From: a virus
Direction: 5' to 3' (one strand)
Virus record (IMG/VR): IMGVR_UViG_3300025889_000360
Coordinates: 1-37,386 of that record
DNA length: 37,386 nucleotides
The notes below the pieces were generated by a model, which worked only from the letters and a program-made list of their open reading frames with translations, did not search any database and had not been told where the DNA came from. How positions within the stretch are numbered: the stretch's first letter is position 1; each line of letters opens with the position of its first letter. Position numbers and translations under genes: made by a program. Below are positions 7,082-23,120 of the stretch, piece by piece.

Positions 7082-7342
7082 ATGACTAAACAAGATTTTG
7101 AAATATTAATGAACTCACTTTATAGTAACAACCAATTATTTATACCTCAAGGACAAAATATAAAAGAATGGATAGATAATGCCTTCGTAGAAAAACAAGA
7201 AGAAGCTATTAATGTTATACAGTGTTGTAAAAGCGATAGCGATCAGTTACATACCGAAGTTTTTAAGTTGGCAAATAAGTTAGCTATTAATGGTTACGGA
7301 AATGAAGCAGTAAAAATGCACCAAATATGCAACGGTATGTAA
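7082..7342 (+). CDS. Small accessory protein, paralogue of the gene at 23024
   Basis: An 86-residue protein whose C-terminal 30 residues (LHTEVFKLANKLAINGYG, then NEAVKMHQICNGM) are nearly the same as those of the leftward gene at 23024-23272; the N-terminal halves differ. The DNA match covers about 94 of 108 bases (7246-7353) and continues past the stop. After the TAA comes TTGTGGCTAAC, the cassette-end signature seen at three other genes. Function unknown; a shared C-terminal interaction module is likely. Confidence 0.65.
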   Translation: MTKQDFEILMNSLYSNNQLFIPQGQNIKEWIDNAFVEKQEEAINVIQCCKSDSDQLHTEVFKLANKLAINGYGNEAVKMHQICNGM

Positions 7343-7353
7343 TTGTGGCTAAC
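7246..7353 (+). repeat. Imperfect inverted repeat shared with 23013-23120
   Basis: About 94 of 108 bases match the reverse complement of 23013-23120 without gaps. It covers the conserved C-terminal module of two small genes, their stop codons and the following CTAAC. The match ends at the CTAAC motif, as expected if that motif is an exchange boundary. Confidence 0.85.
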
Positions 7354-7372
7354 TCCTAATAAACCTAGTTAC
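7349..7372 (+). other. Cassette-end motif with short inverted repeat
   Basis: CTAAC at 7349-7353 lies 9 nt after the T of the stop codon. TAACT (7350-7354) can pair with AGTTA (7367-7371). It is a reduced form of the stem-loop elements at 8244, 10392 and 11864. Confidence 0.4.
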
Positions 7373-7395
7373 AAAACACAACTAAATACAACTAA

Positions 7396-8241
7396 ATGAA
7401 CATAATACCAAAAATAGAACTAAACAAATCAGGATCAGATGATTTTGATTATGCTAAAATTTACAAAGAATGCTTTGTAGATTTAGACAAAGCAATAGAT
7501 AAGCCAGAAATAATATTAGGCATAGGATATCACGACTATAAAGGTGAGCTGTACTTAAATCCTACACATACAATAGGTGAGCTTAGTGCAATTATAGCTC
7601 CTCAAAAAAGTAAAAAGACATTCTATAAACGTGCTACTATTGCTGGGTATATTGGAGGGCAAGCGCAAAATTACTTTCCTTCAATGATTTCTATGCGAAA
7701 AGGAGAGCCTTATATTTTAGACTTCGACACTGAGCAGGGAAAGTATTACGCCCAGCGTAGTTTTAGGGGTGTCCAGGAAATGGTAGGGAGTGTTTATAAA
7801 AATTACTTACCTTTCGGATTAAAGAAATTAACAGATGATGAGCGTGTATTATTTATCGATGCGGTAGTTAATGACCCAAGATATAAGGGTAAGATAGGAT
7901 TAATTTGTATAGATGGTATTGCAGATTTATGTTTAAACACTAACGATATCGAGAAAAGTAAAATAATAGCTCAAAAGATAATGCAGTGGAATGAGGGATG
8001 CCATATTATCGGAGTCATCCATAAGACCTTCGAGAAAGATAGAGCAACCGGACACCTCGGAAGCTTTATTCAAAAGAAAGCAGAGACAACTATTTTTTTA
8101 AACATAACAGATAACGATACTAAAAATAGCCCTGTAAAAGTAGTGCAAAAAGATTCAAGGGGCGCACCGTTTGATCCCTTCTATTTTGATTTAGATTTAA
8201 CAACGGTAACTCCAAAAGAATGTAAAGAGCCTAAATGGTAA
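7396..8241 (+). CDS. RepA-like AAA ATPase with degenerate Walker A
   Basis: A 281-residue protein of the RecA-fold RepA/AAA_25 type found as helicase-like replication proteins of phages and plasmids. The P-loop position reads APQKSKKTF (68-76), where GxxGxGKT is expected: the glycines are gone but a K-K-T remains. The Walker B-like GLICIDGIADL is at 168-178, and the family motif RATGHLGSF lies near 216-224 with IQKKAETTIFL after it. It follows the initiator gene and precedes a DnaA-domain gene two genes on. ATP hydrolysis may be weakened or use a variant loop. Confidence 0.75.
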   Translation: MNIIPKIELNKSGSDDFDYAKIYKECFVDLDKAIDKPEIILGIGYHDYKGELYLNPTHTIGELSAIIAPQKSKKTFYKRATIAGYIGGQAQNYFPSMISMRKGEPYILDFDTEQGKYYAQRSFRGVQEMVGSVYKNYLPFGLKKLTDDERVLFIDAVVNDPRYKGKIGLICIDGIADLCLNTNDIEKSKIIAQKIMQWNEGCHIIGVIHKTFEKDRATGHLGSFIQKKAETTIFLNITDNDTKNSPVKVVQKDSRGAPFDPFYFDLDLTTVTPKECKEPKW

Positions 8242-8243
8242 CG

Positions 8244-8288
8244 GTCTAATATAAGGTGCGTTTTAATGCATTTTATACGTTGTTAGGT
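8244..8288 (+). other. attC-like stem-loop 1
   Basis: GTCTAAT at 8244-8250 and GTTAGGT at 8282-8288 form the ends; CTAA (8246-8249) pairs with TTAG (8283-8286). Inside, TATAAGGTGCG (8250-8260) pairs with TGCATTTTATA (8267-8277) using three G-T pairs around a TTTTAA loop. GTTAGGT fits the integron R-prime consensus GTTRRRY, and its reverse complement ACCTAAC occurs just after the next gene at 8826-8832. The element resembles attC but is shorter than typical sites. Confidence 0.45.
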
Positions 8289-8311
8289 TTAGTTAATTAA
8301 ATTTAAAAAAT

Positions 8312-8821
8312 ATGAGAATAAAATTAAATGAAATAACAGAATATCAAGATAAACAATCTGATTTATTTTCTAAATACAGTGTTTTTTCCTCTTTATCTGA
8401 ATATGAAAAAAGAAATCAATTTAATAAAGACAAAATAATAAATGATATTTATAACGGGAAAAAGGCTGAATTTTTAGTTTACAATTTTTTAATTTCTAAA
8501 CAAAAAAAACTAATATCACCAGATTTAAATATATATGAAAAATATAACAAATCTTATGATGCTGATTTATGTTTAAAAAATGTAAATATTCATGTTAAAA
8601 GTCATAAAGTAAATGGTAATTTTCCAGTATCTTGGGTGTTTCAGAAAAAAGACCCTTTACTATTAGAAATAAAAAATAATGATTATTTAGCTTTAATTGT
8701 TATGGATAAAGACATAAACTATATGTACTTAAAAAAAATAAAAGATGTTGTTTTTAAAGAACCCATAAAGGAGAGTTTAAGAAAAACAAAGTTATGTATA
8801 TATGAATCTGATTTTTTATAA
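8312..8821 (+). CDS. PD-(D/E)XK-like nuclease candidate in a cassette
   Basis: A 169-residue, Lys/Asn-rich protein with a more AT-rich gene than its neighbours. GKKAEFLVYNFLISK (about 50-64), SYDADLCLKNVNIHVKSHK (about 88-106) and PVSWVFQKKDP resemble the order of a PD-(D/E)XK nuclease core: a helix with Glu, then Asp, then a strand with a x-V-K motif; here His stands where Glu is usual. The call is tentative. The gene is bracketed by GTTAGGT (8282) and ACCTAAC (8826) and interrupts the replication genes, so it looks like an inserted accessory, perhaps counter-defence or restriction-type. Confidence 0.5.
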   Translation: MRIKLNEITEYQDKQSDLFSKYSVFSSLSEYEKRNQFNKDKIINDIYNGKKAEFLVYNFLISKQKKLISPDLNIYEKYNKSYDADLCLKNVNIHVKSHKVNGNFPVSWVFQKKDPLLLEIKNNDYLALIVMDKDINYMYLKKIKDVVFKEPIKESLRKTKLCIYESDFL

Positions 8822-8832
8822 TTACACCTAAC
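8819..8832 (+). other. Cassette-end signature TAATT-N4-CTAAC
   Basis: The stop codon TAA (8819-8821) is followed by TT, four bases and CTAAC (8828-8832). ACCTAAC at 8826-8832 is an exact RYYYAAC box. The same spacing occurs after the genes ending at 7342, 10385 and 23024 (minus strand). Confidence 0.6.
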
Positions 8833-8899
8833 TCTTTATAAGCTAATAAACGTAAAAGCACAACTATATGATTATTAATATTTTAAGATATGACAAAAT

Positions 8900-9424
8900 A
8901 TGGAAGTAGTAAAAGCAATTAAGAGACTAGCCTGGAGATTTTCCGAAGCGACTAAGAAAAACAATACATTTACAATTAATCAAAATGACCTAGACGCGCT
9001 CAATGGAATAGCAAAATACATAGAGCAAACCCAACAACAACAATATATAGACAATCAACTCTTTGCAAAGCTATTTATAAAAGTTTACGCTAAAATGATA
9101 GAACATTACAATACTGACATCCTGGACCCGATACCACGCAAAGCAATGTATCATATTTTGGAGACCCCAATAGATAGAATATTACAGGAGTTTACGGATG
9201 AAATGAATTTTAATCAAAAGGTAATTCAATTACAAGACGCTGGAATTAATTTTAAGCATCCTCTTACGCGAACCGATAAAGAAACGATACATAACACCAA
9301 AACTATAAAAGAGTTGCTTAAAACGGCTGAAAATGATTATTTAGAAGATAGCTTTGATATTGAATTTGTAGCTGAAGGATTAAAAATTGAAATTAATAAC
9401 GCATTAAACTTATTTAAAAACTAA
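8900..9424 (+). CDS. Hypothetical replication-region protein
   Basis: A 174-residue helical protein (MEVVKAIKRLAWRFSEA...), with a Gln-rich stretch near residue 44 and an acidic C-terminal half. It abuts the DnaA-domain gene with a 5-bp gap, so the two are probably translated together and may cooperate in replication initiation. The gap upstream (8833-8899) shows no clear gene. I recall similar proteins in Bacteroidota phages without known function. Confidence 0.65.
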   Translation: MEVVKAIKRLAWRFSEATKKNNTFTINQNDLDALNGIAKYIEQTQQQQYIDNQLFAKLFIKVYAKMIEHYNTDILDPIPRKAMYHILETPIDRILQEFTDEMNFNQKVIQLQDAGINFKHPLTRTDKETIHNTKTIKELLKTAENDYLEDSFDIEFVAEGLKIEINNALNLFKN

Positions 9425-9429
9425 AAACT

Positions 9430-9942
9430 ATGACAAACTTAGAGCTAATTTATAATATATGCTGTAGTGCTACAGGATTGGAGTTGAATAAAAAAACACG
9501 CAAACGGGAATATATCTACGCAAGGGCTTGTTATTATTATTTTGCTAGATTCCACACTAAAAAAAGTCTTTCCTCTATTGGTTTAATTTGTGGGACAGAT
9601 CACGCTACCGTTTTGCATGGTATAAAAATTTACGAAAACAATATAAAATATCCCGATTTCTATAAGATGAGCGAAAATATAAATAAAGAGCTGCCAGACT
9701 TTGAAATATTAAAAGTAAAGGAAAGCAGAAAAGAAAGAGCTTACTTAACATCTGTTAATGATAAGCTAAAAGATAGAATATTAGAACTAGAGGAGTTTGT
9801 AAGAAATAATGAAATAAAAAACAAACATATTCAAGAAATCAATAGTTTGCCAGAGATTGAGTTACAAGAGTTTTTAAAATACAAATGGCAACCGCATAAA
9901 AAAATGTTGGAAAGTAAAGTAAATTATCCTATCTTTAACTAA
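9430..9942 (+). CDS. DnaA domain IV-like origin-binding protein
   Basis: A 170-residue protein. Residues 22-63 read KTRKREYIYARACYYYFAR, then a helix-turn-helix and GTDHATVLH at 55-63, the signature of the DnaA C-terminal DNA-binding domain (bacterial G-R-D-H-S-T-V). There is no AAA domain. The C-terminal half is a charged helical region probably forming a coiled coil. A phage protein that binds DnaA-box-like sites, either to start phage replication or to interfere with the host origin, is the likely role. Confidence 0.8.
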   Translation: MTNLELIYNICCSATGLELNKKTRKREYIYARACYYYFARFHTKKSLSSIGLICGTDHATVLHGIKIYENNIKYPDFYKMSENINKELPDFEILKVKESRKERAYLTSVNDKLKDRILELEEFVRNNEIKNKHIQEINSLPEIELQEFLKYKWQPHKKMLESKVNYPIFN

Positions 9943-9994
9943 CTGATTTGTGTATAATTAGTTTTGATTTAATAATTAATAGATAAAATAAAAA

Positions 9995-10138
9995 ATGACA
10001 GACTTAAAAGAACTTTACGAAAATGAAACAGGAAAAGACCCTTGGTTTAAAGATGAACTTTATGGAACTTCTGGACTAACACAAGATTATGCAGAATGGC
10101 TAGAAGCAAAAATTAATTATACACATTGTTGCCATTAG
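9995..10138 (+). CDS. Small acidic protein, unknown
   Basis: A 47-residue ORF, MTDLKELYENETGKDPWF then KDELYGTSGLTQDYAEWLEA, ending in THCCH. The opening segment (LYENETGKDPWF) resembles short flavobacterial phage proteins of unknown role. It is preceded by an A-rich leader, and TAGTTTTG at 9959-9966 could be a -7 element without a visible -33. It lies in a 567-bp stretch (9943-10509) that otherwise holds one more small gene and a stem-loop. Confidence 0.5.
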   Translation: MTDLKELYENETGKDPWFKDELYGTSGLTQDYAEWLEAKINYTHCCH

Positions 10139-10217
10139 TACTTTAAGGAAATGAATGACAACTATAAATCGGCAGCAAACAAAGATTAGTGACGAAATAT
10201 TGTAAACACATAACAAG

Positions 10218-10385
10218 ATGAAAAAAGAATTTAATTTACAAGAACACAAAACTAAGGCATTAAATATAGCCGATGTTAGCCAACAACGTGAACTGTTAAA
10301 GGCTTTTTGTGAATGGGCTTTTAAGGAAGACAGTGATTGGCATCAAGTGAATAGCCATATAGAAGGTTACTTAGATAGCCTTTAA
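10218..10385 (+). CDS. Small accessory protein sharing a VSQQRELL module
   Basis: A 55-residue protein (MKKEFNLQEHKTKALNI...). Its VSQQRELL segment matches the middle of the protein at 23024-23272 on the minus strand; the DNA agrees at 24 of 25 bases (10274-10298 against 23117-23141). The rest (AFCEWAFKEDSDWH...) is different. The stop is followed by TTGCCACTAAC, the shared cassette-end signature, and then a strong stem-loop. It is likely a cassette-borne small protein. Function unknown. Confidence 0.6.
   Translation: MKKEFNLQEHKTKALNIADVSQQRELLKAFCEWAFKEDSDWHQVNSHIEGYLDSL
10274..10298 (+). repeat. 25-bp repeat shared in inverted orientation with 23117-23141
   Basis: 24 of 25 bases match the reverse complement of 23117-23141. 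It encodes the VSQQRELL segment in both small proteins and begins with TGTTAGCC, which itself resembles the GTTAG boundary motif. Confidence 0.85.
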
Positions 10386-10391
10386 TTGCCA

Positions 10392-10444
10392 CTAACGTAT
10401 TGGTATATGGAACGGCTTTTTTGCTGTTTTATATACCGTGTTAT
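10392..10444 (+). other. attC-like stem-loop 2
   Basis: TAAC (10393-10396) pairs with GTTA (10440-10443). After an asymmetric internal loop, a 15-bp stem forms between 10402-10416 and 10423-10437 with three G-T pairs, around a six-T loop. The G-T pairs put all G on one strand, so the plus strand (or its RNA) folds better than the minus. It lies seven bases after a stop codon and upstream of the methyltransferase cassette. Confidence 0.6.
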
Positions 10445-10467
10445 TAAACGTTTTTTTAAAAGGGCTG
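10433..10467 (+). repeat. 35-bp inverted repeat flanking the Dam-like gene, left arm
   Basis: 31 of 35 bases match the reverse complement of 11275-11309. The inner end carries AAAAGGGCTG (10458-10467). The arm overlaps the right side of stem-loop 2. Confidence 0.85.
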
Positions 10468-10509
10468 TGCGTGAGGTACGAGGGCAAATATTCACAACAA
10501 TAATAAATT

Positions 10510-11268
10510 ATGATATTAAGAAGAATGGGTAATAAAAGTAAAATAGCAAAGGAAATACAAAAGCATTTTCCTAAACATACAATGTACATAGAGCCTTTCT
10601 TTGGTGCTGGTGGTATGTTTTTTAATAAACCTAAAGTAAAATACAATATTGTTAATGATTTCGACAATGATGTTTTTAACTTATTTCAAATGGTTTCTTT
10701 AAAAAAGGATGAACTTAAAACACAAATGGAAATACTACCAATACATAACGGATTATTGGATTACTGGAAGAAAAACAAAGAAGAAGATGAAATTAGAAAA
10801 GCATTGAGATTTGTTTTTTTATCTAACTTTACCTATATGTGTGCAGGTGCTTCTATGCTTTTCGGCACAGAAAACCCTAAGCAAATTTTTCAAAAAAGAT
10901 TAGACAAAACTTTTGATTTAATAAAAGATGTTCAGTTTGGTAACAAAGATTTTAGAGACTTTTTTAAACAGTTAAAAGAAAAAAATGCAAGTAATGGTCT
11001 AATTTATTGCGACCCACCTTATTTAGGAACTGATGATAATTATAGTAATTCATTTAACGAAAATGATAGTAATGATTTATTTGATTGTTTAGAGAAAAGC
11101 AAATTTAAGTTTGCAATGTCTGAATTTAAACACCCTTTTATATTGGAACAAGCGAAACAAAGAAACTTGAACGTTATTATAATAGGTGAAAGAGGTAATT
11201 TAAAAAACTTTAAGACTGAAATATTAGTAACTAATTATGAAAATTTGCAACAATCTCTTTTTGCGTAA
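10510..11268 (+). CDS. Dam-like D12-class DNA adenine methyltransferase
   Basis: A 252-residue alpha-group methyltransferase. GNKSKIAKEI at 7-16, the SAM-binding YIEPFFGAGG at 26-35, NDFDNDVFNLF at 49-59 and catalytic DPPY at 168-171 are in Dam/D12 order. It is slightly shorter than cellular Dam. It is bracketed by 35-bp inverted repeats (10433-10467 and 11275-11309), and its flanks carry cassette-type TAAC motifs, so it looks like a mobile gene cassette. It is the second methyltransferase in the genome (other at 5613), suggesting layered restriction evasion. Whether it modifies GATC cannot be told. Confidence 0.9.
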   Translation: MILRRMGNKSKIAKEIQKHFPKHTMYIEPFFGAGGMFFNKPKVKYNIVNDFDNDVFNLFQMVSLKKDELKTQMEILPIHNGLLDYWKKNKEEDEIRKALRFVFLSNFTYMCAGASMLFGTENPKQIFQKRLDKTFDLIKDVQFGNKDFRDFFKQLKEKNASNGLIYCDPPYLGTDDNYSNSFNENDSNDLFDCLEKSKFKFAMSEFKHPFILEQAKQRNLNVIIIGERGNLKNFKTEILVTNYENLQQSLFA

Positions 11269-11274
11269 GAGTGG

Positions 11275-11309
11275 CAGCCCTTTTAAAAATATGTTTTATA
11301 ACACCGTAT
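11275..11309 (+). repeat. 35-bp inverted repeat flanking the Dam-like gene, right arm
   Basis: The reverse complement of this arm matches 10433-10467 at 31 of 35 bases. It starts six bases after the methyltransferase stop and ends in CACCGTAT, which is part of a second repeat family (11299-11326). Confidence 0.85.
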
Positions 11310-11326
11310 AACCATGATAAACTAAA
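11299..11326 (+). repeat. TAACACCGTATAAC repeat, copy 1
   Basis: 28 bases matching 12139-12166 at 26 positions; its first 15 bases also occur exactly on the minus strand at 23002-23016. Each copy follows an accessory gene. Confidence 0.85.
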
Positions 11327-11342
11327 ATAATTAAAAATAAAG

Positions 11343-11372
11343 TTGTTTATTAAATATTTAATTGTATTTTTG
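11343..11372 (+). promoter_or_regulatory. Strong promoter for the sigma-like gene and late operon
   Basis: TTG at 11343-11345, a 19-nt spacer, then TATTTTTG at 11365-11372: a full match to the flavobacterial TTG-N17-23-TAnnTTTG consensus. Transcription would start near 11378, a few bases before the ATG at 11387. Confidence 0.8.
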
Positions 11373-11386
11373 GTAAAACTTTAATA

Positions 11387-11857
11387 ATGTCAATCTTAGA
11401 CGAACTAGCAAAGGACGATAGTAAATGGAGGATGATTGCTTTGAAAATCTGTGGAAATAAAAGCCTGGCAGATGATCTAGTCCAGGAAGCATATCTTTCA
11501 GTTATGGATAAGAAAGAGGTTAAGTGTTCGTATATGTATAGAACAATACTTAATAAGTTTTTAAATCACACGAAAGAAAATGAACAAATAAACATAGACG
11601 ATTTAAGCAACCTTCAAAGTAACGATGATAAATTTGAGCCTGATGATGAAGATCTTAAAATATTAAATAGGTTTCGTAAAATCAACTGGAGGCAACAAGA
11701 CTTAATAAGTGAAAGCTATGATAAGAGCTTACGACAAATAGAAGAGTCATTCCCGATGATAAACTACGCCTATGCTTATAGACAAATAAAAGAAGGTACT
11801 GAAATTGTTTTAGCAGATGATATTTATAAGTATAAAAACACTAGGTGCAAAAGATAA
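11387..11857 (+). CDS. Phage sigma-70-like / ECF-type regulator
   Basis: A 156-residue protein. Residues about 20-40 (ICGNKSLADDLVQEAYLSVM) match the sigma region 2 signature, where ADDLVQEA...V contacts core RNA polymerase and the -10. The C-terminal part has RQQDLISESYDKSLRQIEE and a following helix that fit a region 4-type helix-turn-helix. It lies between accessory genes and the terminase, behind the clearest promoter of the genome. A role in switching on the packaging and structural operons is a natural inference. An alternative is a sigma-like terminase accessory, known in Bacteroidota phages. Confidence 0.75.
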   Translation: MSILDELAKDDSKWRMIALKICGNKSLADDLVQEAYLSVMDKKEVKCSYMYRTILNKFLNHTKENEQINIDDLSNLQSNDDKFEPDDEDLKILNRFRKINWRQQDLISESYDKSLRQIEESFPMINYAYAYRQIKEGTEIVLADDIYKYKNTRCKR

Positions 11858-11863
11858 ACTAAA

Positions 11864-11900
11864 TAACCTTAGCAAAGGCTTTTATTTATAGCCATTGTTA
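11864..11900 (+). other. attC-like stem-loop 3
   Basis: TAAC (11864-11867) pairs with GTTA (11897-11900). Inside, AAAGGCT (11874-11880) pairs with AGCCATT (11890-11896) with one A-A mismatch, around a nine-base AT loop. The right end, GTTAGCAAAC (11897-11906), is the exact reverse complement of GTTTGCTAAC (12133-12142) after the next gene. Confidence 0.45.
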
Positions 11901-11919
11901 GCAAACGTAAATTATTATT

Positions 11920-12141
11920 ATGGAACACCAAGCATATCAAACACCAAAAGAAAATTTAATGAATAGTGCATTAGAACACTATGAAGAAGCAAGTACAGCA
12001 ATACATCATTGGAATAGCGATATACCTAAAGCGATTAGACACTACTATATAGGCGACCAAAAATTAAACAAAAAGGGATTAGTTTCTCTTGGTGTTTGTA
12101 TTGGTTTAGTAGTAGGTTTTGTGTTGGGTTATGTTTGCTAA
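11920..12141 (+). CDS. Small membrane-anchored accessory protein
   Basis: A 73-residue protein with a helical, His-rich N-terminal part (ALEHYEEASTAIHHW) and a single C-terminal membrane helix (VSLGVCIGLVVGFVLGYVC at the end). A tail-anchored inner-membrane topology is likely. The gene sits between GTTAGCAAAC and GTTTGCTAAC, a perfect 10-bp inverted pair, with its stop codon inside the right arm. It is another cassette-like insertion. Function unknown; membrane-acting exclusion proteins are one possibility. Confidence 0.6.
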   Translation: MEHQAYQTPKENLMNSALEHYEEASTAIHHWNSDIPKAIRHYYIGDQKLNKKGLVSLGVCIGLVVGFVLGYVC

Positions 12142-12166
12142 CACCGCATAACTATGATAAACTAAA
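12139..12166 (+). repeat. TAACACCGTATAAC repeat, copy 2
   Basis: 26 of 28 bases match 11299-11326. The stop codon of the membrane protein gene (12139-12141) is the first triplet of the repeat, and the next gene starts five bases downstream. Confidence 0.85.
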
Positions 12167-12170
12167 CTAT

Positions 12171-12347
12171 ATGAAAACATCAATAAGCATAAAGACAACA
12201 AAAAAAACAGATATAGACGAGGAGATACATCACGTAACTTTTAAAGATTACCGCGGAGACTACACCATTAAAATAGACAATGGCACAGCACGTCAATTTA
12301 TAGATAGTTTAGATACCGCTGTAAATTATTGCGAACTAATACAATAA
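12171..12347 (+). CDS. Hypothetical small protein
   Basis: A 58-residue protein, MKTSISIKTTKKTDIDEEI and then a beta-rich segment with a helix near the end (ARQFIDSLDTAVNYCELIQ). The reading frame is open back to 12096, but the extra residues would overlap the preceding gene and run through a repeat; ATG 12171 follows the repeat directly. It precedes the packaging genes with a three-base gap. Function unknown. Confidence 0.6.
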   Translation: MKTSISIKTTKKTDIDEEIHHVTFKDYRGDYTIKIDNGTARQFIDSLDTAVNYCELIQ

Positions 12348-12350
12348 AAA

Positions 12351-12587
12351 ATGACTACCTACAAACTAAAATTATATGCTGAGACCGAGGAGGATGTCAC
12401 TATGTGGATGGAATTATACTTAGATGTAGAAACAATTACAGGATTTTACATTCCCTTATCAGATGAAGATGAGGAGCCGTCTATAAATATATTCATAGGA
12501 GACGCCCCCATAACCATTAAACAAGAAGATCACATAATTGACTATCTATATAATAGATTCGTAATAAACGCTGTAAAAAATGACTAA
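12351..12587 (+). CDS. Hypothetical acidic protein
   Basis: A 78-residue acidic protein (MTTYKLKLYAETEEDVTMW...) with DEDEE near the middle. It overlaps the next gene by eight bases, so the two are coupled, and both belong to the start of the packaging operon. No recognisable domain. Confidence 0.6.
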   Translation: MTTYKLKLYAETEEDVTMWMELYLDVETITGFYIPLSDEDEEPSINIFIGDAPITIKQEDHIIDYLYNRFVINAVKND

Positions 12588-13050
12588 GGATAAAGAATAC
12601 TACCAATCACTAGATAAACGATCTAAAGAGTACAGACAATGGAAAGAGTCTCAAGTGGTGAACAAAGAACCTAAACGACTAGGAGATGTGATAGAATCAA
12701 TCACGGAGGTAACAGGAATAAAGAAAGTAGTTGAAAAGATATTTGGAGAAGATTGCGGTTGCGAGGATAGAAGAAAGAAACTAAATACTGTACATCTTCC
12801 TGAAAGGTTTAAAGTAAGACGATGTTTGACTGAGGATCAATATAACCAATACCAGGAATATAGAGAGCGTAGGACATTAGACTATAAGACTAGCGATGTT
12901 CAAATAATGATAGACATCTTTGCTCACGTATTTGCTATACAATATCACCTATCAGAATTGTGTTTAAACTGTCAAGGGAGTTACAAGGTTATAAAAAGCA
13001 TTGAAGATAAATTAGATGTAGTTTATGAAAGCTACGAAAATGAAATGTAA
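12580..13050 (+). CDS. Conserved terminase-adjacent protein with Cys motifs
   Basis: A 156-residue protein. Around residues 33-66, GDVIESITEVTGIKKVVEK leads to FGEDCGCEDRRKKLN, a motif that I recall in Bacteroidota phage proteins encoded just before terminase. A second Cys pair, CLNCQG, lies near 130-135, so metal binding is possible. The helical C terminus ends ESYENEM. Likely a packaging or head-assembly accessory, by position only. Confidence 0.65.
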   Translation: MTKDKEYYQSLDKRSKEYRQWKESQVVNKEPKRLGDVIESITEVTGIKKVVEKIFGEDCGCEDRRKKLNTVHLPERFKVRRCLTEDQYNQYQEYRERRTLDYKTSDVQIMIDIFAHVFAIQYHLSELCLNCQGSYKVIKSIEDKLDVVYESYENEM

Positions 13051-13074
13051 AATTATTAATAATCTTTTTTAAAT

Positions 13075-13341
13075 ATGGCAGACGGCAGAAAGAGTAATGG
13101 AGGACATAAGACCGCAGGGCGTAAACCTAAGGTAGAAGAACAGGCTTTGATAGAGAAGTTAAGCCCATTAGAAGATAGCGCTTACAAGGCTCTTAAAAAG
13201 GCAATCGCTTCAGATGAAAGTTGGGCGGTTAAAATGTTCTTTGAATATATGTACGGCAAGCCTAAACAAGTTATAGACCAAAACACAAACCTAAACATTA
13301 ATGACTTCGACGTATCCAAACTGTACAATAAAAAAACATAA
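13075..13341 (+). CDS. terS: Small terminase subunit
   Basis: An 88-residue protein: MADGRKSNGGHKTAGRKP is the Gly/Lys-rich DNA-binding start common to small terminases of Bacteroidota phages. The helical part follows (LSPLEDSAYKALKKAI), and then KMFFEYMYGKPKQ before an Asn-rich tail. It recognises the packaging site and stimulates the large subunit. The gene overlaps the large-subunit gene by 41 bases. Confidence 0.8.
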   Translation: MADGRKSNGGHKTAGRKPKVEEQALIEKLSPLEDSAYKALKKAIASDESWAVKMFFEYMYGKPKQVIDQNTNLNINDFDVSKLYNKKT

Positions 13342-14530
13342 GGACATTTGGAATCATTTAAACAATGAGACTAGATACTTTATAATCACAGGAGGTAGAG
13401 GTTCGGGTAAGTCATTTGAGGTGGGTCGTTTCTCCTCTATATTATCATTCGAAAACAGTCACAAAATACTATTCACAAGGCAGACAATGACCTCTGCACA
13501 CCTGTCAATCATTCCAGAGTTCCAGGAGAAGATAGAGCTGTTAGGTTTAAAAGATGCTTTTGACATTACACGCAACGAGATAAACAATAAGGTATCAGGA
13601 AGCCAGATAATATTTAGAGGGCTTAAAACCTCATCAGGAGACCAAACAGCAAACCTTAAATCATTACAAGGTATTGATACTTGGATATTAGATGAAGCTG
13701 AGGAGCTAATAGATGAAACTACATTCGATAAGATAAACCTGTCTATTAGGCAAAAGGGAATACACAACCGAATCATATTAATACTAAACCCAGCCACTAA
13801 AGAACATTGGATATACAAACGTTTCTTTGAGTCTAAAGGAGTTGATGCAGGCTTTACAGGTGTTAAAGGAGACACTACATACATACATACAACCTACTTA
13901 GATAACATAGATAACCTAGATGAAAGTTTCTTAGATGAGATTGAGCGCATTAAACTATCAAATCCTATTAAGTTTAAGCACGTTATAGAGGGCAGTTGGA
14001 TTGAGAAGGCGGAAGGAGTTGTATTTGATAACTGGAGGTTCGGAGACTTTAACCCAGACGGTCTACAGGTTATTTATGGGCAGGATTACGGCTTCAGTAT
14101 AGACCCTACCACTTTGATATCTGTAGCGATAGACCAAAAGAAAAAACGTATCTATGTTAAAGAACACTTATACAAACCCAAACTATCAACAGCACAAATA
14201 GGATACATTAACCTAGAAACTTGTGGTAAGAGTTTAATCGTTGCGGATAGTGCAGAGCCTAGATTAATAGATGAGCTGTACAGGATAGGTTGTAACATCG
14301 TAGGAGCTGAGAAGGGCGCGGGCAGTATCTCTTTAGGAATATCTTTACTTTTAGACTATGAAATAATAGTTGAGCCTAATAGCCAGAACATCGCAAAGGA
14401 GTTGAACAACTTTATTTACGCTGATAAGACCTCTAAATTATACATTGATGCCTTTAACCATACCATTGACCCATTGAGATATGTAGTTACATATGTCTTA
14501 GGTAAATCAACAGGAATAGAAATTCGATAA
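13301..14530 (+). CDS. terL: Large terminase subunit (packaging ATPase-nuclease)
   Basis: A 409-residue protein of the PBSX/Terminase_3 type. Walker A GGRGSGKS is at 31-38, Walker B WILDEAEE at 128-135 and the coupling motif ILNPA near 161-165. The nuclease domain has D262 in YGQDYGFSIDP and D316 in IVADSAEP, two of the RNase H-like metal ligands. It pumps DNA into proheads and cuts it. The start at 13301 (MTSTYPNC) overlaps the small-subunit gene and is needed for a normal N terminus. Confidence 0.95.
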   Translation: MTSTYPNCTIKKHKDIWNHLNNETRYFIITGGRGSGKSFEVGRFSSILSFENSHKILFTRQTMTSAHLSIIPEFQEKIELLGLKDAFDITRNEINNKVSGSQIIFRGLKTSSGDQTANLKSLQGIDTWILDEAEELIDETTFDKINLSIRQKGIHNRIILILNPATKEHWIYKRFFESKGVDAGFTGVKGDTTYIHTTYLDNIDNLDESFLDEIERIKLSNPIKFKHVIEGSWIEKAEGVVFDNWRFGDFNPDGLQVIYGQDYGFSIDPTTLISVAIDQKKKRIYVKEHLYKPKLSTAQIGYINLETCGKSLIVADSAEPRLIDELYRIGCNIVGAEKGAGSISLGISLLLDYEIIVEPNSQNIAKELNNFIYADKTSKLYIDAFNHTIDPLRYVVTYVLGKSTGIEIR

Positions 14531-16158: not shown

Positions 16159-16681
16159 AGTTGAAAGAGTATTAAGGGAGTTTGGTGAACGAGTAAATAA
16201 AAAGGCACGCGCTAACTTAAAGAGCGAAGGAAAAGACGCGTCAGGTGCTTTATCTAAATCTTTAGTATTAGATGTAAAGCAACATCCCAACAGTATTACG
16301 ATGAGTATGTTGTCTGAAGATTATTTGAAATTTGTAGACAAAGGAGTTAAGGGAGTAGGAGGCACAAAGAAAGACGGAACAAAATGGAATCAAAAAAGAG
16401 TTACTAATAATTTATATAAATATAGAAAATTAAAACCTCCAAAGGACGCGTTTAATGGTTGGACTATTCGTAGAGGCATTGCACCAAGAGATAAGAAAGG
16501 AAAGTTTATGAAGCGAAACAGTTTATTGTATGCTATTGCTAATAGTGTATATCACACAGGTATCGAAACAACTAATTTCTTTACAACCCCTTTTGAAGAA
16601 GAGTACCCAAGTTTGCCAGATGATATAGTTGAGGCTTATGGATTAGATATTGAAGAAACTTTAAAATTTATATTAAAATGA
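16151..16681 (+). CDS. HK97 gp10-like neck / tail-completion protein
   Basis: A 176-residue basic protein. LKFVDKGVKGVGGTKKDG near residues 59-76 and the late PFEEEYPSLP-type segment resemble HK97-gp10-like proteins, where a YxxxVDxGxxG motif is characteristic. These form the neck or tail-completion ring between head and tail. It sits after a terminator-like gene. It overlaps a small ORF at 16678 by four bases. Confidence 0.6.
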   Translation: MTEVERVLREFGERVNKKARANLKSEGKDASGALSKSLVLDVKQHPNSITMSMLSEDYLKFVDKGVKGVGGTKKDGTKWNQKRVTNNLYKYRKLKPPKDAFNGWTIRRGIAPRDKKGKFMKRNSLLYAIANSVYHTGIETTNFFTTPFEEEYPSLPDDIVEAYGLDIEETLKFILK

Positions 16682-16827
16682 TGGACTATAAAGACTTATT
16701 AGCGAGATATATTAAACATATTGTTGAGTGTGAGGGAGTTGATTTTTTATCACAAAGCTATATTAATGGAGGTGATGTTAAGTTCTCAAAAGACGAGATT
16801 AAGGAATTAGAAAGATTGTCATTATGA
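16678..16827 (+). CDS. Small protein between neck and tail genes
   Basis: A 49-residue ORF (MMDYKDLLARYIKHIVECEG...; ends KELERLSL). It fills the gap exactly, with four-base overlaps on both sides (ATGATGG at 16678 and ATGA at 16824). A start at the second ATG (16681) is equally possible. Helical appearance. Function unknown. Confidence 0.6.
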   Translation: MMDYKDLLARYIKHIVECEGVDFLSQSYINGGDVKFSKDEIKELERLSL

Positions 16828-17897
16828 TACGTTCACTATCGCCTTATTACGTAACAGTTCCTTTTGTATCTCCTGCATCTAGTGAAACCTGTACGTCCTA
16901 TACTCTTAATGTTTATATTTGGGATGGGTTAAAAGCAAGCGTTCCTGCAACGGTTACTTATTCATATACTAAATCAAACCCAACAGCATCGACAGGTAGC
17001 GATAAGATAAACATATCTAGGATACTATCAGACTACATAGAGCCAACACCAATAGAGGGAGTTGCTACAGAAATAACAAACGCTGAGTTAACTTGGTGGG
17101 TTAAGTACGAATATACTTACGTTAGTGATGAGCCAACAGACGCAACGACACCACAAGGCACAACCACTTCTTTATACTCCAGAGGATATACCTATGGGGG
17201 TGAGGGAGAAAACATTACAACGGTTACTAATAGAAAACTATTTGCAGGCGATGAGTTTAAAGCAGATAGAACTAGTTATTATAACTTGCCTATTCTATTT
17301 GATGAGTCGGCTACAACAGATATAATAGTTTTAAGTTATCCTAACAGCGAAATAAATTACTCAGTATCAAAGGCAGCAACTACCACTTCATCACGGTTAG
17401 TTGGAAACATATGGGTTAATTTAAGTGAGACCACATTAGATACTTATGTAGTTATTACAGTTGAGGGGGTGGAGTTATGTACTATTTTGATTGAGGATGA
17501 ACAAAAGTATGCACCTTTAGATATATTTTTCATAAATAAGTACGGATGCCAACAGTCTTTTACATTCTTTAAGGAAAAAACGGATAGTTTAACCATTACA
17601 GACAGCCAATTTGAGAGCGATAGAGGTCAGCCCAGCGCAGGAAACCATCAGTTTGTACGCTTTAATGTTCAAGGCAGAGAGGAGTTCAGGGTGAATACTG
17701 GATGGATTGATGAGGAAAACAACGAAACTATAAAGCAATTACTGTTATCGGAGTTGATATGGTCTTATGATGGCACTAATTTCACCCCGTTAAACATCAA
17801 AACTAAGACTCAAGAATGGAAAACACAACAAAAAAACAAGCTAATTAACTACGAAATAGGATTTGAGTATTCGTATAACGAAATTAATAACATATAA
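16824..17897 (+). CDS. Beta-rich tail protein
   Basis: A 357-residue Thr/Ser-rich protein of mainly beta character (MIRSLSPYYVTVPFVSP...), with a C-terminal DEENNETIKQLLLSELIW segment. Proteins of this type lie just upstream of the large distal tail protein in Bacteroidota siphophages. It is probably a distal tail or baseplate part. Its stop immediately precedes the TTG start of the next gene. Confidence 0.55.
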   Translation: MIRSLSPYYVTVPFVSPASSETCTSYTLNVYIWDGLKASVPATVTYSYTKSNPTASTGSDKINISRILSDYIEPTPIEGVATEITNAELTWWVKYEYTYVSDEPTDATTPQGTTTSLYSRGYTYGGEGENITTVTNRKLFAGDEFKADRTSYYNLPILFDESATTDIIVLSYPNSEINYSVSKAATTTSSRLVGNIWVNLSETTLDTYVVITVEGVELCTILIEDEQKYAPLDIFFINKYGCQQSFTFFKEKTDSLTITDSQFESDRGQPSAGNHQFVRFNVQGREEFRVNTGWIDEENNETIKQLLLSELIWSYDGTNFTPLNIKTKTQEWKTQQKNKLINYEIGFEYSYNEINNI

Positions 17898-20306
17898 TTG
17901 ATTAGTACTATATACATAGGGGGTTGGAGATTAGATCAATTTAACGATGAAAACGTTAACGTTGTAAGTCAAGTTGCTAGTATTAAAGATATTACAGCAA
18001 ACAATACCGACTATACGTATGATTTCACATTACCTGCGTCTCAAAGAAATAATATTCTATTTAAGCATTGGTACGACTTCAATATTGATAATGGATTTGA
18101 TGCACGAACAAAGCAAAGCGGTGAAATATATTTAGATGGTGTTCTGTTTAAAGAGGGCAACTTTAGTCTTTTAAGTGTAAATATAAAAAAAAACAAAGTA
18201 AATCATTATGTAGTTAAGTTCGTTGGTAAGTTAGTAGATATAAAAGAAAAGGCTAAGGAGTTAGAATTAAGTGATTTAAATTTAATAGAATACGACCACG
18301 ACTTTTCAAGTGATAACGTCTATCTTGGATTAACACAAAGTTTATTTTCAGGGTCTATAATTTATAACCTATTTGCAAAGAAACAGTTTTATATCAATGG
18401 AGATGGAGTTGATGAAGTGCAAACAGCAACGACATCTAATATATCTTTCGAAGGAGGAGCTGGCTCTGGTGTTATATGGAACGATCTTAGACCTTCTTTA
18501 AAAGTAATAAATATAATAGAAGCTATTGAGGTATTACTAGATGTGACATTTACACGTCATTTTTTTGGTACGTCTGAGTTTAACACTTTATATATGTGGT
18601 TAAACCCCGATAAAGATGAAACAATAAGAGGTAATTTCCTAAGAGTTGATTGGGATAATAATACATCGCCTCCTTTTGGTAATCCTGGTATGTTCGGACC
18701 TTATATGAATCTTACTACTGATGAGGGAAGTTATCCAAGAGAACTAGATGGATGGTGGTCTTTTGTTTATGTAATTACTCCAGAAGCAGGATTCGAAACT
18801 GTTACTTATACGATGAGAACCATCTTAGACGGTGATGATTTTGCATCTATTGAAATTCCATCAGGGGGCAATCAAATAGACGGTTCAGGAGTTCAGCTTA
18901 TTAATATGAGAGATGTATCTGTTGGAAGTCATATCGTTTCTTTTGAGGTTGTAAGTGAACAAGATTTTCAATACACAGCGGTGTTAAATCAATATAATTA
19001 TGATAACGCAGGATTTGATATTGATAGTGCTGGAACGAGTGGTTCTGCTCAAACCCTAAACGGTGATTTAATTATATCACAAAACATTCCTAAAATAAAG
19101 ATAATTGATTTTTTAAAAGGTTTATTTAATGCTTTTAAATTAGTTATTATAAGACAAGAGAATGGAGATTATTATGTAAATACAATATCTAATTATTATG
19201 CGGAAGGATTAAGTTATGATATTACGAAATATATTGATTGGGATTCTTTTGACGTTTCAAGGGGTGAGCTGTTAAATGAGATAAAGTTTAAGTTTAAAAA
19301 GCCTACAACGATTGCAAATATATTCTTTGAGTCTCTTAATGGTAGAGGATATGGAGATCAATTTTTATACCTAAATGATGAGGATGGAAAACCATTAGAG
19401 GGGGGTAGTTTAGTTGTAGAACTCCCTTTTGAGCAGTTTCAATATGAAAGGCTTATAGATGTTTTTACATCAATACCAGCACAACTATTACACGCTTCAA
19501 TAGTTGATGAAGATTTACAGCCAGCAAATCCTAAAGCTCATTTATTTTACAATATTAGAGAGGGTCAGGGAGTTACAAGTATAGGCTTTAGAAATGATTT
19601 GGATCAGAAAATACCTATCCCACTCCCAACAATTAATGTACCTAATCATGGTAATTCTTTAGAAAACTCATCATTCTCATTTTTATTTGAGGCTGAATAT
19701 TCGGAATGGGACGGCAACCCTTTCACTAAAAATCTTTATAAAAACCACTATGAAGATTATATACTAGCAATCTTTAACATCAAAAAACGAACAGTAAAAC
19801 ATAAGGCTTTTTTGCCATTACATATTATAACGAAGATACAACTAAACGATGTAGTTTATATAAAAGGAAACTATTACCGAATTGATAAATATAGTTATAA
19901 TCTATTAGATGGAGCGACTGATTTCGATTTAGTAAATTCATTTGATAATACTTTAAATCCCTACTTAGCATATCCAAATACAATAACAACAAGCCTTAAT
20001 GCAACAACGGAAAAGGTATTTTTAACGAGTGCTAGTAATTCAACTTTTGTTAAAAACGATTTAGGGTTTGGCACTAGTTGGGTAACTGTTTCTGGTGTTC
20101 AAGAAAGCCAAACTACAACAAATATATTAACCATTGATGTAGATGAAAATACAACAGAATATGATAGGTCTATAACGATCACATCAACAAATACAGCAAC
20201 AGGGGAAACGGAAATAATATACATATATCAAAAAGGAGTTATTTATATACCAACCCTTAATTTTTCAGATTATAGAAATTCACAATATTTAAACTTAATA
20301 ATATGA
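17898..20306 (+). CDS. Large distal tail protein with C-terminal BACON domain
   Basis: An 802-residue protein read from a TTG start directly abutting the previous stop. The N-terminal part (YTYDFTLPASQRNNILFKHW near residue 40) looks like the hub/Dit-Tal-type proteins that form the tail tip in Bacteroidota phages. Residues about 695-780 form a BACON-like domain: ...TSWVTVSGVQES..., NTTEYDRSITITS and a final IIYIYQKG. BACON domains are linked to glycan or mucin attachment and occur in crAss-like phages. The protein probably binds the cell surface at the tail tip. Confidence 0.7.
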   Translation: MISTIYIGGWRLDQFNDENVNVVSQVASIKDITANNTDYTYDFTLPASQRNNILFKHWYDFNIDNGFDARTKQSGEIYLDGVLFKEGNFSLLSVNIKKNKVNHYVVKFVGKLVDIKEKAKELELSDLNLIEYDHDFSSDNVYLGLTQSLFSGSIIYNLFAKKQFYINGDGVDEVQTATTSNISFEGGAGSGVIWNDLRPSLKVINIIEAIEVLLDVTFTRHFFGTSEFNTLYMWLNPDKDETIRGNFLRVDWDNNTSPPFGNPGMFGPYMNLTTDEGSYPRELDGWWSFVYVITPEAGFETVTYTMRTILDGDDFASIEIPSGGNQIDGSGVQLINMRDVSVGSHIVSFEVVSEQDFQYTAVLNQYNYDNAGFDIDSAGTSGSAQTLNGDLIISQNIPKIKIIDFLKGLFNAFKLVIIRQENGDYYVNTISNYYAEGLSYDITKYIDWDSFDVSRGELLNEIKFKFKKPTTIANIFFESLNGRGYGDQFLYLNDEDGKPLEGGSLVVELPFEQFQYERLIDVFTSIPAQLLHASIVDEDLQPANPKAHLFYNIREGQGVTSIGFRNDLDQKIPIPLPTINVPNHGNSLENSSFSFLFEAEYSEWDGNPFTKNLYKNHYEDYILAIFNIKKRTVKHKAFLPLHIITKIQLNDVVYIKGNYYRIDKYSYNLLDGATDFDLVNSFDNTLNPYLAYPNTITTSLNATTEKVFLTSASNSTFVKNDLGFGTSWVTVSGVQESQTTTNILTIDVDENTTEYDRSITITSTNTATGETEIIYIYQKGVIYIPTLNFSDYRNSQYLNLII

Positions 20307-21130
20307 GTACAATAGTAGTAAAAGATGGCAATATAGCCGATAAGTATTATAACGTAGTTGGAGCTGGAACGGCAGCAGACCCATTTCAACAGGTAGTTCC
20401 AGATTATAGGATTGCAAACGCAATTAGAAACATAGCGGTTAATGACGGTGTCACAGTTAGCGTTTATGAAAAGGCGAAGAACTTAGTTAAGTTTGGTTCA
20501 AATCCTTCGTTGGCATCGGGGGTTGAAGAAACGGTGTGGAGTACGGGTGGTATAGAGGTGTTAGAAACCACTAACGCAATAGGTAGATTAGTATCTACGG
20601 ATGCAGGAGATACTCAAACCGTCGTTATAGAGGGGCATACTATAAGTGGCTCAGATTTCACATTTGTAACTCAAACAGCAACACTAAATGGAACTACTCC
20701 AGTAGTATTGACAACTTTATTGGCGCGAACTAGCCGAATTTACAATACAGGTTCTACTGATTTTGCAGGAACTGTGACTGTATATACAAATGGGGGAGAT
20801 ACTCATTTAACAGCGTCAGGGAGTGATAACCAGTCTTTAAAATGCGCCAGAACAACATCGAGTACTGACTATTGGATAATCACAGGCTTTGATGTCGCTG
20901 TCAATAGGTCTAACATTGCTAATGTAGATTTTAAATTACAAGTTAGAGAATCTGGCGGTGTCTTTCGAACACAGTATTTTACTAGCCAGGCAAATGGAGG
21001 TAGTTATTTCACTTTCGACCAGCCATTAATAGTAAAGCCGAACTCAGATGTGAGGGTTCAAGCAACAAGTAACGCTGCGAGTACTTCCGTTGGCTCATCT
21101 ATTCACGGATATTTAGCTATTGTACAATGA
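20303..21130 (+). CDS. Tail/baseplate-associated protein, possibly receptor-binding
   Basis: A 275-residue beta-rich protein: MSTIVVKDGNIADKYYNV at the N terminus, a Thr-rich middle, and a C-terminal half ending SSIHGYLAIVQ. The second half (...NGGDTHLTASG..., FKLQVRESGGVF) has the look of a jelly-roll or upper-baseplate domain. It overlaps the BACON protein gene by four bases. Adhesion is inferred from the position. Confidence 0.5.
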   Translation: MSTIVVKDGNIADKYYNVVGAGTAADPFQQVVPDYRIANAIRNIAVNDGVTVSVYEKAKNLVKFGSNPSLASGVEETVWSTGGIEVLETTNAIGRLVSTDAGDTQTVVIEGHTISGSDFTFVTQTATLNGTTPVVLTTLLARTSRIYNTGSTDFAGTVTVYTNGGDTHLTASGSDNQSLKCARTTSSTDYWIITGFDVAVNRSNIANVDFKLQVRESGGVFRTQYFTSQANGGSYFTFDQPLIVKPNSDVRVQATSNAASTSVGSSIHGYLAIVQ

Positions 21131-21270
21131 TTATAAAGATAATAGATACTTTGCAGGGCAATGATTTCTACGGCTCTGGGAAATATACCGAAATAGCCAA
21201 AGGGAAAAACGAACTTGTTACAGATTGGAAGGGGTTTAAACGTAAAGTTAAGAGAGCAATTAATAAATAA
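21127..21270 (+). CDS. Small basic protein before the tape measure gene
   Basis: A 47-residue ORF (MIIKIIDTLQGNDFYGSGKY...; ends KRKVKRAINK). It starts at an ATGA overlap with the upstream gene and ends four bases before the tape measure start. The tight spacing supports reality. Function unknown. Confidence 0.6.
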   Translation: MIIKIIDTLQGNDFYGSGKYTEIAKGKNELVTDWKGFKRKVKRAINK

Positions 21271-21274
21271 AAAA

Positions 21275-22993
21275 ATGGCTTTAGAGAAGAACATAAGTAT
21301 TAATGTAGATACAGGAAAAGCTAAAAAGGAGTTCAAAGACCTTGGGGGTGTAATTCAAGAGCAGAAAGACATTACAATTGAGTTTGAAAAGGAATTAAGA
21401 GCCTTAGAGAGTCAACTTGCCAATACTTCAAAGGGTAGTTTGGCAGCCCAAAAAGCCCTTAAAGATCAAATTTCAACATTAAAGAACGCTTTAAAAGACC
21501 AAAGGATATCTTTAAAAGACTTAAATAATGAGAAATCAAAGGCTAAGGTTTTAAATGAGTCTTATACGGATGGACTAAGCAAAACTACAGGAGTTGTAAC
21601 GTATTTAAACCAAGCAACAGGAGGACTTGCTGGTAAGTTTATAGATGTAGCTAGAGCAGCGAAATTAAGCGGTAAGGCTATGAAAGCTGCATTAATATCT
21701 AGTGGTATTGGTGTGGCAGTTGCTTTAATTGCTTTAATTGTTGAGTATTGGGATGATATTGTGGGGTCTATTGAGGACGCAAATGCAAAATTAGAAGAGC
21801 AAAACAGATTATTAGAAAGAAATAAATCAGCATTACTATCTAAACTACGCCTTAATCAGCAGTTTATAGATCAGGCTATAAAGGAAGGAAAAAATGTAGA
21901 TGATTTGGTTAAAAAAAGAGGTGAATTAATTACAAGTTTGCAAAAAGAACTTTTAGCCAAACAACAGTTAATCCTAGCGAAAAGAGATGAAGCGTTATTA
22001 GACGCTAAAAAATTAACATTTGAGGAAAGAGTTGCTCAGAAAAGAGAAACTGGAAAGGTAGTAGAAGGTACTGGGGTTGTGACACCTGAGGAGTTGAAGA
22101 TAATAGATGAGTACAATGCTGAACTAGATAAACTTACGGAGTCATTAACTCAATTAGGATTTGAATCGACTAATTTAGGAGATATTGGGAAGGAAAAACC
22201 AAAAAAAGAAAAGAAAGAAAAAGAAGATAAAGATAATACAAAAATAGGCTTTGATGATACAAATCAAAAAAGACTTGATGAAGAAATAAAATATTTAGAA
22301 GATTTAGCAACAATAAGACAAACTTTTGCTGATAAAAACAGAGAAAACGAACTAGCTCAACTTGAAATTGACAGACAAAGAAAAATAGATCAAATAGATC
22401 AGTTTTTAGTAGACGAAACATTTAAAGCACAAGCGAAAGCAGAAGTAAATAAATTTTACGATAAACAAATTGCAGATACATCTGAGAAAATAAAAAAGAA
22501 GTCAGATGATGAAATAAAAAAATCTGAAGAATCGCTAAAAAATGCTAAAATTGCTATTGCTAAAGATACTTTAGGTAATCTAGGCGCTCTTGCAAAAGAA
22601 GGCTCTGCACTTTCTAAAGGTATAGCGGCATCACAAGCGACTATAAATACATTTCAAGGGGTTACATCTGCTTTGAGTGCAACATCTGTTATTCCTGATC
22701 CGTTTGGTTCTATACTTAAATTTGCTAACGCAGCAGCTATTGGAATTGCGGGTTTTATAAATGTAAAGAAAATACTTGCCACAAAACCAGTTTCAACAAG
22801 TGTGCCTGGTGGAGGGTCTGGTGGAAGCGCTCCGAGACCTCCTGCTTTCAATCTAGTACAAGGTACGAAATCTAATCAAATAGCAGATAGCGTACAGTCG
22901 GGAACGCAACCCGTCAAGGCTTATGTAACTTCTAAAGACGTTACTTCACGTCAGGAAATGGATAGGAATATAGAAGGCGGAGCTAGTTTATAG
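21275..22993 (+). CDS. Tape measure protein
   Basis: A 572-residue protein, using ATG 21275 (MALEKNISINVDTGKAKKE) rather than an upstream in-frame ATG at 21215 inside the previous gene. Long coiled coils (about 25-95, 165-250 and 340-450) flank a hydrophobic segment at 138-158 (AALISSGIGVAVALIALIV); a second apolar stretch lies near the end. This is the normal tape measure layout. At about 1.5 angstrom per residue it implies a tail near 85 nm, so a siphovirus. The stop is followed by an accessory gene on the other strand. Confidence 0.85.
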   Translation: MALEKNISINVDTGKAKKEFKDLGGVIQEQKDITIEFEKELRALESQLANTSKGSLAAQKALKDQISTLKNALKDQRISLKDLNNEKSKAKVLNESYTDGLSKTTGVVTYLNQATGGLAGKFIDVARAAKLSGKAMKAALISSGIGVAVALIALIVEYWDDIVGSIEDANAKLEEQNRLLERNKSALLSKLRLNQQFIDQAIKEGKNVDDLVKKRGELITSLQKELLAKQQLILAKRDEALLDAKKLTFEERVAQKRETGKVVEGTGVVTPEELKIIDEYNAELDKLTESLTQLGFESTNLGDIGKEKPKKEKKEKEDKDNTKIGFDDTNQKRLDEEIKYLEDLATIRQTFADKNRENELAQLEIDRQRKIDQIDQFLVDETFKAQAKAEVNKFYDKQIADTSEKIKKKSDDEIKKSEESLKNAKIAIAKDTLGNLGALAKEGSALSKGIAASQATINTFQGVTSALSATSVIPDPFGSILKFANAAAIGIAGFINVKKILATKPVSTSVPGGGSGGSAPRPPAFNLVQGTKSNQIADSVQSGTQPVKAYVTSKDVTSRQEMDRNIEGGASL

Positions 22994-23001
22994 GTTGTTA
23001 T

Positions 23002-23016
23002 GGTTATACGGTGTTA
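23002..23016 (-). repeat. TAACACCGTATAAC repeat, copy 3
   Basis: On the minus strand this reads TAACACCGTATAACC, exactly as at 11299-11313. It follows the stop of the leftward accessory gene, inside the shared cassette-end signature. Confidence 0.85.
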
Positions 23017-23120
23017 GTGACAATTACATACCATTGCAAATTTGGTGCATTTTTACTGCTTCATCACCATACCCATTAACAGCTAATTCGTTTGCCAACT
23101 TAAATACTTTGGTATGTAAC
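23013..23120 (-). repeat. Imperfect inverted repeat shared with 7246-7353
   Basis: About 94 of 108 bases match 7246-7353 in inverted orientation. It covers the C-terminal module, stop codon and CTAAC of the gene at 23024. Confidence 0.85.

Follow-up and report, generated by a model that had tools for sequence, protein, structure and literature searches.

A recurrent gene-end motif as a probable boundary of integrase-less, integron-like cassettes in phages of Flavobacteria

The viral DNA analysed here, referred to as the window, covers positions 1 to 37,386 of IMG/VR record IMGVR_UViG_3300025889_000360. Four of its genes end with the motif TAATT-N4-CTAAC, which an earlier note had compared with the R'' box of integron cassettes. 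The motif is probably the 3' end of mobile cassettes that form integron-like, integrase-less arrays in phages of Flavobacteria, resembling clusters of attC sites lacking integron integrases (CALINs). Otherwise near-identical phages differ by the replacement of whole units, whose cargo includes methyltransferases, HNH-type genes, and small modular proteins, and the edges of these replacements lie at the boxes. Only YAAC and GTTR are constant in the boundary; the adjoining bases are specific to each unit and complementary between both ends of one cassette.

The gene-end motif and matched cassette ends

The four copies were confirmed at 7340-7353 (+), 8819-8832 (+), 10383-10396 (+), and 23013-23026 (-), where they form the right-hand cassette ends of genes 7082-7342, 8312-8821, 10218-10385, and 23024-23272 (-). 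All of them lie at stop codons, compared with 0.39 copies expected and a maximum of two in dinucleotide shuffles of this 37.4-kb sequence; the pattern was picked post hoc, after the data had been inspected. The copies at 7342 and 23024 are homologous and belong to a 127-nt inverted repeat, 83% complementary, that runs across the gene ends. Their two genes have the last 100 nt and 25 nt further in common. The small proteins encoded before the four copies gave no family match above cut-off, and an Rfam scan of the window returned nothing relevant.

A constant spacing between stop and box, as read from these copies, is not general. Across 77 related sites, the stop within this DNA box falls in any of three frames: counted back from the end of AAC, it is TAA at 14 nt in 19/77, TAG at 11 nt in 7/77, and TAA at 4 nt in 35/77. 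The end box TAATTGTGGCTAAC is thus a feature of the DNA and not of the protein. The statement that core genes do not have the motif is also not quite right, as the end of gene 7396-8241 is a TGGTAAC variant with an attC-like hairpin behind it.

Cassettes have the form 5'-GTTRNNNNN...NNNNNYAAC-3', and their ends match each other unit by unit. A perfect match (R plus five further bases) was observed in 88 gene units, compared with a mean of 2.9 and a maximum of 8 after permutation. In control phage loci, one match was found against 0.4 permuted. The pairing statistics of palindromic units were uninformative with both strands counted and were recomputed by gene orientation. End sequences are unit-specific, with 36 different 7-mers among 55 ten-base matches, and the matching runs on into stems of roughly 13 bp, of which 53/85 have a G-T pair at position 11. 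Units of the same gene at new places provide only four pairs for comparison.

Three units in the window (all +) have matched ends. The best is the cassette of gene 11920-12141 at 11897-12142, whose ends GTTAGCAAAC...GTTTGCTAAC match at 10/10 positions. The ends GTTAGGTTTA...TACACCTAAC of the cassette of gene 8312-8821 (8282-8832) match at 9/10, the right end being the second motif copy. The same score was obtained for the unit at 10440-11302 with the Dam-type methyltransferase gene 10510-11268 and the ends GTTATTAAAC...GTTTTATAAC. The Dam gene is also flanked by a 36-nt inverted repeat (89%) at 10432-10467 and 11275-11310, which outside the cassette ends includes AAAAGGGCTG/CAGCCCTTTT. Other methyltransferase cassettes, in the sibling contig L070 and in the isolated Polaribacter phage P12002L, have a common leader with GAGCGAGGGCA and ends like TAAGCACTTG or TAAGCGCCC.

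In integron cassettes, the left GTTRRRY is expected to match the cassette's own RYYYAAC because both form one site in the circle. The phage units show this relation, their left end being complementary to their own R'' box. Integron cassette boundaries are defined by two GTTRRRY sequences (PMC3053210); the phage ends do not follow the full consensus GTTRRRY/RYYYAAC, as GTTR/YAAC alone is constant and the next positions are free. The N4 of the motif belongs to the unit-specific cassette end.

Exchange at the boxes between and within genes

Sequence comparison of sister phages revealed several exchanges. Where L070 and the window align, their identity is 91-97%. Window positions 9943-11298, which contain the Dam gene as well as small open reading frames (ORFs) and a hairpin, are replaced in L070 by one different, DNA-methylase-like gene. 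On the left, the replaced segment is bordered by a right-hand box with an L''-like arm, CTAACTGATTTGTGTATAATTAG (9939-9961, +), at the end of gene 9430-9942. On the right, homology restarts exactly at TAACACCGTATAACC, window position 11299, the edge being TAACACCGTATAACCATGATAAACTAAA (11299-11326, +). The cassette at 11897-12142 also has a counterpart in L070. At TTTATAGCCATT[GTTAGCA...TGCTAAC]ACCGCATAAC, the flanks are kept and the inner unit is unrelated, with its own matched ends. A second sibling, L285 (95% identical alongside), carries a different, DNA-methylase-like gene behind the box at 23013.

Isolated phages show the same kind of event. P12002L and P12002S share blocks of 99.6-99.7% identity, which are broken at AAC at P12002L positions 37265, 47445, and 32283. 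P12002S has about 1.1 kb extra immediately after TAATTGTGGCTAACGTGTTGTGTAT. One P12002S junction, ATTGTTGCTAACG followed by TTTGGTTATATGG, merges halves found in P12002L as ATTGTTGCTAACG followed by GCTACGG and AATTGCAGGTAACG followed by TTTGG; with the P12002L junctions assumed to be the parental types, the contiguous identity at this joint is TAACG only. P12024L and P12024S, which come from one host strain, differ in the same GTTGT...ACAAC slot: where one has an ORF-less hairpin, the other has a methyltransferase gene together with a hairpin and a second attC-like site.

Of 195 distinct breakpoints in cassette-bearing loci, 21 start with GTTAG (1.7 expected) and 7 with CTAAC (0.6 expected). 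The 283 breakpoints of the control loci showed no enrichment (GTTAG 3 vs 2.3, CTAAC 1 vs 0.3). A cruder count over 679 alignment ends gave a 7- to 9-fold enrichment of GTTAG/CTAAC. Because the box was one ground for choosing the cassette loci, fairer tests are offered by the control loci and by the isolate pairs, which were retrieved as entire phages. Box presence near all edges was weaker when isolate and sibling pairs were taken singly (5/10, 5/8, 1/3, and 6/8, against a background of about a quarter). Edges fall at the AAC or GTT core bases, as in integron cassettes. The comparison with the R'' box is thus supported: exchange edges lie exactly at this boundary between the homologous loci of window/L070, window/L285, P12002L/S, and P12024L/S, and the box exceeds chance level at the breakpoints of cassette-bearing phages. 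Mosaic breakpoints in the control loci (L066-L145 and others) gather at start codons (ATG 18 vs 3.7 expected, offset 0).

Boxes also occur inside genes. The block GTTAGCCARCAACGTGAACTGTTA is shared by gene 10218-10385, as the in-gene junction box GTTAGCCAACAACGTGAACTGTTA (10275-10298, +), and gene 23024-23272 (-), as GTTAGCCAGCAACGTGAACTGTTA (23117-23140, -); both encode VSQQRELL. With one ambiguous base allowed, this 24-mer matched at least 61 viral contigs. In nearly all cases, it encodes VSQQRELL in the middle of small proteins whose N- and C-terminal parts are freely variable, and the C-terminal part mostly terminates in TAATT-N4-CTAAC or a near variant. A degenerate scan, in which most synonymous codons were permitted, recovered an almost identical set of sites. 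The codons of VSQQREL are frozen across 77 sites: CTG is used in 72/77 and accounts for 3% of leucine codons in these phages, and AGC (76/77), GTT (77/77), and CGT (76/77) have usual shares of 32%, 45%, and 45%, respectively. Protein selection does not account for this freezing.

Comparison of the modules showed 15 pairs that share the C-module and differ in the N-module and the downstream DNA, six pairs that share the downstream DNA only, and three that share the N-module only. Protein halves, N- and C-terminal, that are unrelated and interchangeable are joined at the in-frame box. A protein search with the modular protein found no match among isolated phages; at the DNA level, the box was found in Polaribacter, Olleya, and Cellulophaga phages. 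AlphaFold predicted an all-helical modular protein with a pTM of 0.36, too weak for a fold search.

Hairpins, recombinases, and competing explanations

Intergenic hairpins accompany the cassettes. Their layout is YAAC, 4 to 6 nt, a 10-bp arm, a loop (often CGTTTTAATG), the second arm, 3 nt, and GTTR. In 41 hairpins, the arms pair at 388 of 410 positions, compared with 284 (maximum 304) with arms permuted, and many compensatory pair types occur. Like attC sites, they are palindromic hairpins with two arm pairs, unpaired spacers of 4-6 and 3 nt, and a covarying 10-bp inner stem. Two other attC features were not seen, as a bulge (extrahelical base) is present in only 5/41 and the bias towards G-T pairs favours folding of the sense strand over the bottom strand.

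A custom covariance model, which the earlier note had proposed as a check, was trained on 30 of the 41 hairpins and recognised two in the window (both +). The hairpin TGGTAAC-GGTCTA-ATATAAGGTG-CGTTTTAATG-CATTTTATAC-GTT-GTTAGG (8233-8290), after gene 7396-8241, scored 59 bits and is itself part of the training set. The other, CACTAAC-GTATT-GGTATATGGAACGGC-TTTTTT-GCTGTTTTATATACC-GT-GTTAT (10387-10448), is outside the training set and scored 31.5 bits (E=0.002; sense-strand fold z=-2.84). With these two attC-like hairpins and without the tyrosine recombinase family PF00589, the window resembles a CALIN, an assignment that is a covariance-model call with strict attC features partly absent. Outside the window, the model matched the isolates P12002L/S and P12024L/S and contig L066. 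In the remaining contigs with a related terminase that were searched, no match fell below E 0.1; L090 came closest at 0.15. Scanning for attC-like folds with a simple pattern was abandoned as unspecific (0.137/kb vs 0.094 in shuffled sequence and 0.104 in control loci).

If the units are such cassettes, a recombinase acting in trans would cut G^TT / AA^C. On leaving, the unit would close into a circle, its two ends combining into a single attC-like site, and this circle could then insert at any further box of this kind. Candidates for the enzyme are a tyrosine recombinase of the host and an integron integrase encountered in a different host.

Several observations speak against this scenario. 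Three of the four motif copies (7340, 10383, and 23013) have no matched left end in the window. A textbook cassette would take its hairpin along, and many exchanges leave the downstream hairpin in place: the hairpin often did not move with the gene (the 15 pairs with the same C-module and different downstream DNA) and sometimes did (two pairs). R''/R' complementarity across the intergenic hairpin stops at the YAAC/GTTR core (95 vs 87, not significant). PF00589 was detected in only 2/50 cassette-phage records, many of which are fragments whose lack of it is no proof. None was found in P12002L or in the window, so the remark that no recombinase of this genome explains the cassettes was upheld. 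A complete integron, with an IntI gene and attI, was not observed, as the window has no tyrosine recombinase; no search was made for attI. Among 296 Flavobacteriales genomes, no IntI exceeded the NCBIfam cut-off, and partial matches were without the IntI-specific stretch.

The strongest objection to a plain integron cassette is the strand, because IntI acts on the bottom strand (PMC3053210). Among the hairpin-stem pairs that deviate from Watson-Crick, 45 are G-T and 4 are A-C (p 8e-10), and the gene-oriented cassette ends have 46 G-T and 15 A-C pairs. This excess of G-T indicates that the gene-sense strand is the one on which the stems are maintained; the sense strand also gives the better fold of the window hairpins. 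The structures may have an additional function in RNA; otherwise, the strand used as substrate would be the opposite one.

The cassettes appear to be phage-borne, because TAATTGTGGCTAAC is at chance level in the 296 Flavobacteriales genomes (8 times vs 6 for the reversed control). The VSQQREL box was found once among bacterial genome contigs, in a contig of a Flavobacteriales metagenome-assembled genome. We also entertain, more tentatively than the integron-like array itself, a phage-only cassette exchange with a recombinase of its own that would move genes and half-genes. Its substrate would be the folded sense strand with unit-specific ends, not the bottom strand of integrons, and recombination at boxes within coding sequences would create new combinations of N- and C-terminal protein parts.

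The most serious rival, which we regard as rather unlikely, is phage mosaicism, in which homologous or annealing-driven recombination takes place at gene-boundary sequences that are conserved. A role in RNA (3' end, processing, or termination) would preserve the boxes and hairpins, and recombination would simply use them as short homology. For lambdoid phages, boundary-sequence mosaicism at short homology has been proposed, and the phages studied here likewise exchange gene by gene at short common sequences. The sense-strand G-T bias, the conserved G-T pair at stem position 11, and the location of hairpins mostly behind same-strand ORFs (69 vs 27) fit such a role, as do exchanges on both sides of hairpins in phages without a site-specific recombinase. 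Nevertheless, shared linkers do not predict that the two ends of a unit correspond to each other while different units have different ends; the boundary consists of a self-matching pair, structured and variable in part, and not of a single shared linker. The contiguous identity at a resolved crossover is as short as 5 bp, ordinary control-phage breakpoints lie at ATG and not at boxes, and RecT was found in only 1/50 cassette-phage records. Moreover, one attC of this set functions with IntI1 (PMC9892861).

A purely regulatory or terminator element, with a coincidental resemblance to cassettes, is improbable. Its hairpins would be expected after stops with the better fold on the sense strand, as observed, but no T-run follows the hairpins read, the box is conserved within reading frames, and the exchange of exact units with precise edges contradicts it. 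Chance combined with common descent of two genes could draw on the two homologous copies and the post hoc pattern and is refuted by the control statistics for breakpoints and end matching and by the recurrence of the box between unrelated flanks in at least 61 viral contigs.

Neighbouring features, known systems, and meaning

Some further features were observed. P12002L (L262) has on its minus strand a 68-bp leader, AACAACGGATAAAACAAG...GTTTGATTAT, in two 100% identical copies behind gp35 (29248) and gp53 (37305), which begins exactly at AAC. DNA behind the box is conserved in many places (L262 32693 and many leaders) as AAC-N4-TTG-N-GTATATG-ATTAGTWGCG and is perhaps the promoter of the next gene. 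Contig L051 has a dense array of cassette units at 2188-4700, immediately behind a terminase-like gene. In the window, a homing-endonuclease-like gene (36442-36846) lies between 39-nt direct repeats (90%) at 36423-36461 and 36858-36896. A perfect 126-bp direct repeat at the window ends (7-132 and 37261-37386) suggests that the contig is probably a complete genome, terminally redundant or circular.

Integrase-less attC clusters in a flavobacterial phage are already known. Integrons are very rare in Bacteroidetes according to IntegronFinder 2.0 (PMC9024848). Qi et al. 2023 described 17 phage CALINs, including that of P12002L with methyltransferase cargo, and demonstrated recombination of P12002L_attC2 with attI1 through IntI1 (PMC9892861). 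The window belongs to the same phage group and shares methyltransferase cargo and the lack of an integrase; P12002L has TAATTGTGGCTAAC, TAATTGTGCCTAAC, a VSQHREL box, and the same hairpins. That report gives a few attC sites and describes no P12002L/P12002S exchange, matched ends, half-gene shuffling, or spread in uncultivated phages. The P12002 genome paper noted only the synteny and many common genes of both phages (PMC4615864). In the open-licence literature, we found no paper describing matched ends, half-gene shuffling, or exact sister-phage exchange.

Compared with integron cassettes with attC (RYYYAAC ... GTTRRRY; class 1, PMC3053210), the phage units have the same GTT/AAC boxes, two-arm hairpin with spacers, cargo behind the left box, and complementary ends. 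They differ in having no IntI, matched ends that are longer (9-13 bp) and include a conserved G-T, sense-strand stems, hairpins that are often left behind, and boxes inside ORFs. Half-gene shuffling, exact exchanges between sister phages, an apparently phage-only distribution, and sense-strand stems are new.

The boxes offer a concrete, testable route by which virulent marine phages exchange methyltransferases and small genes singly, a process usually left at 'mosaicism', and two isolated sister-phage pairs exist for direct tests. If the exchange is site-specific, integron-like biology would extend to a phage gene pool for which no bacterial reservoir has been seen so far, and phages would have a further means of assembling new proteins, by fusing halves at an invariant DNA box.

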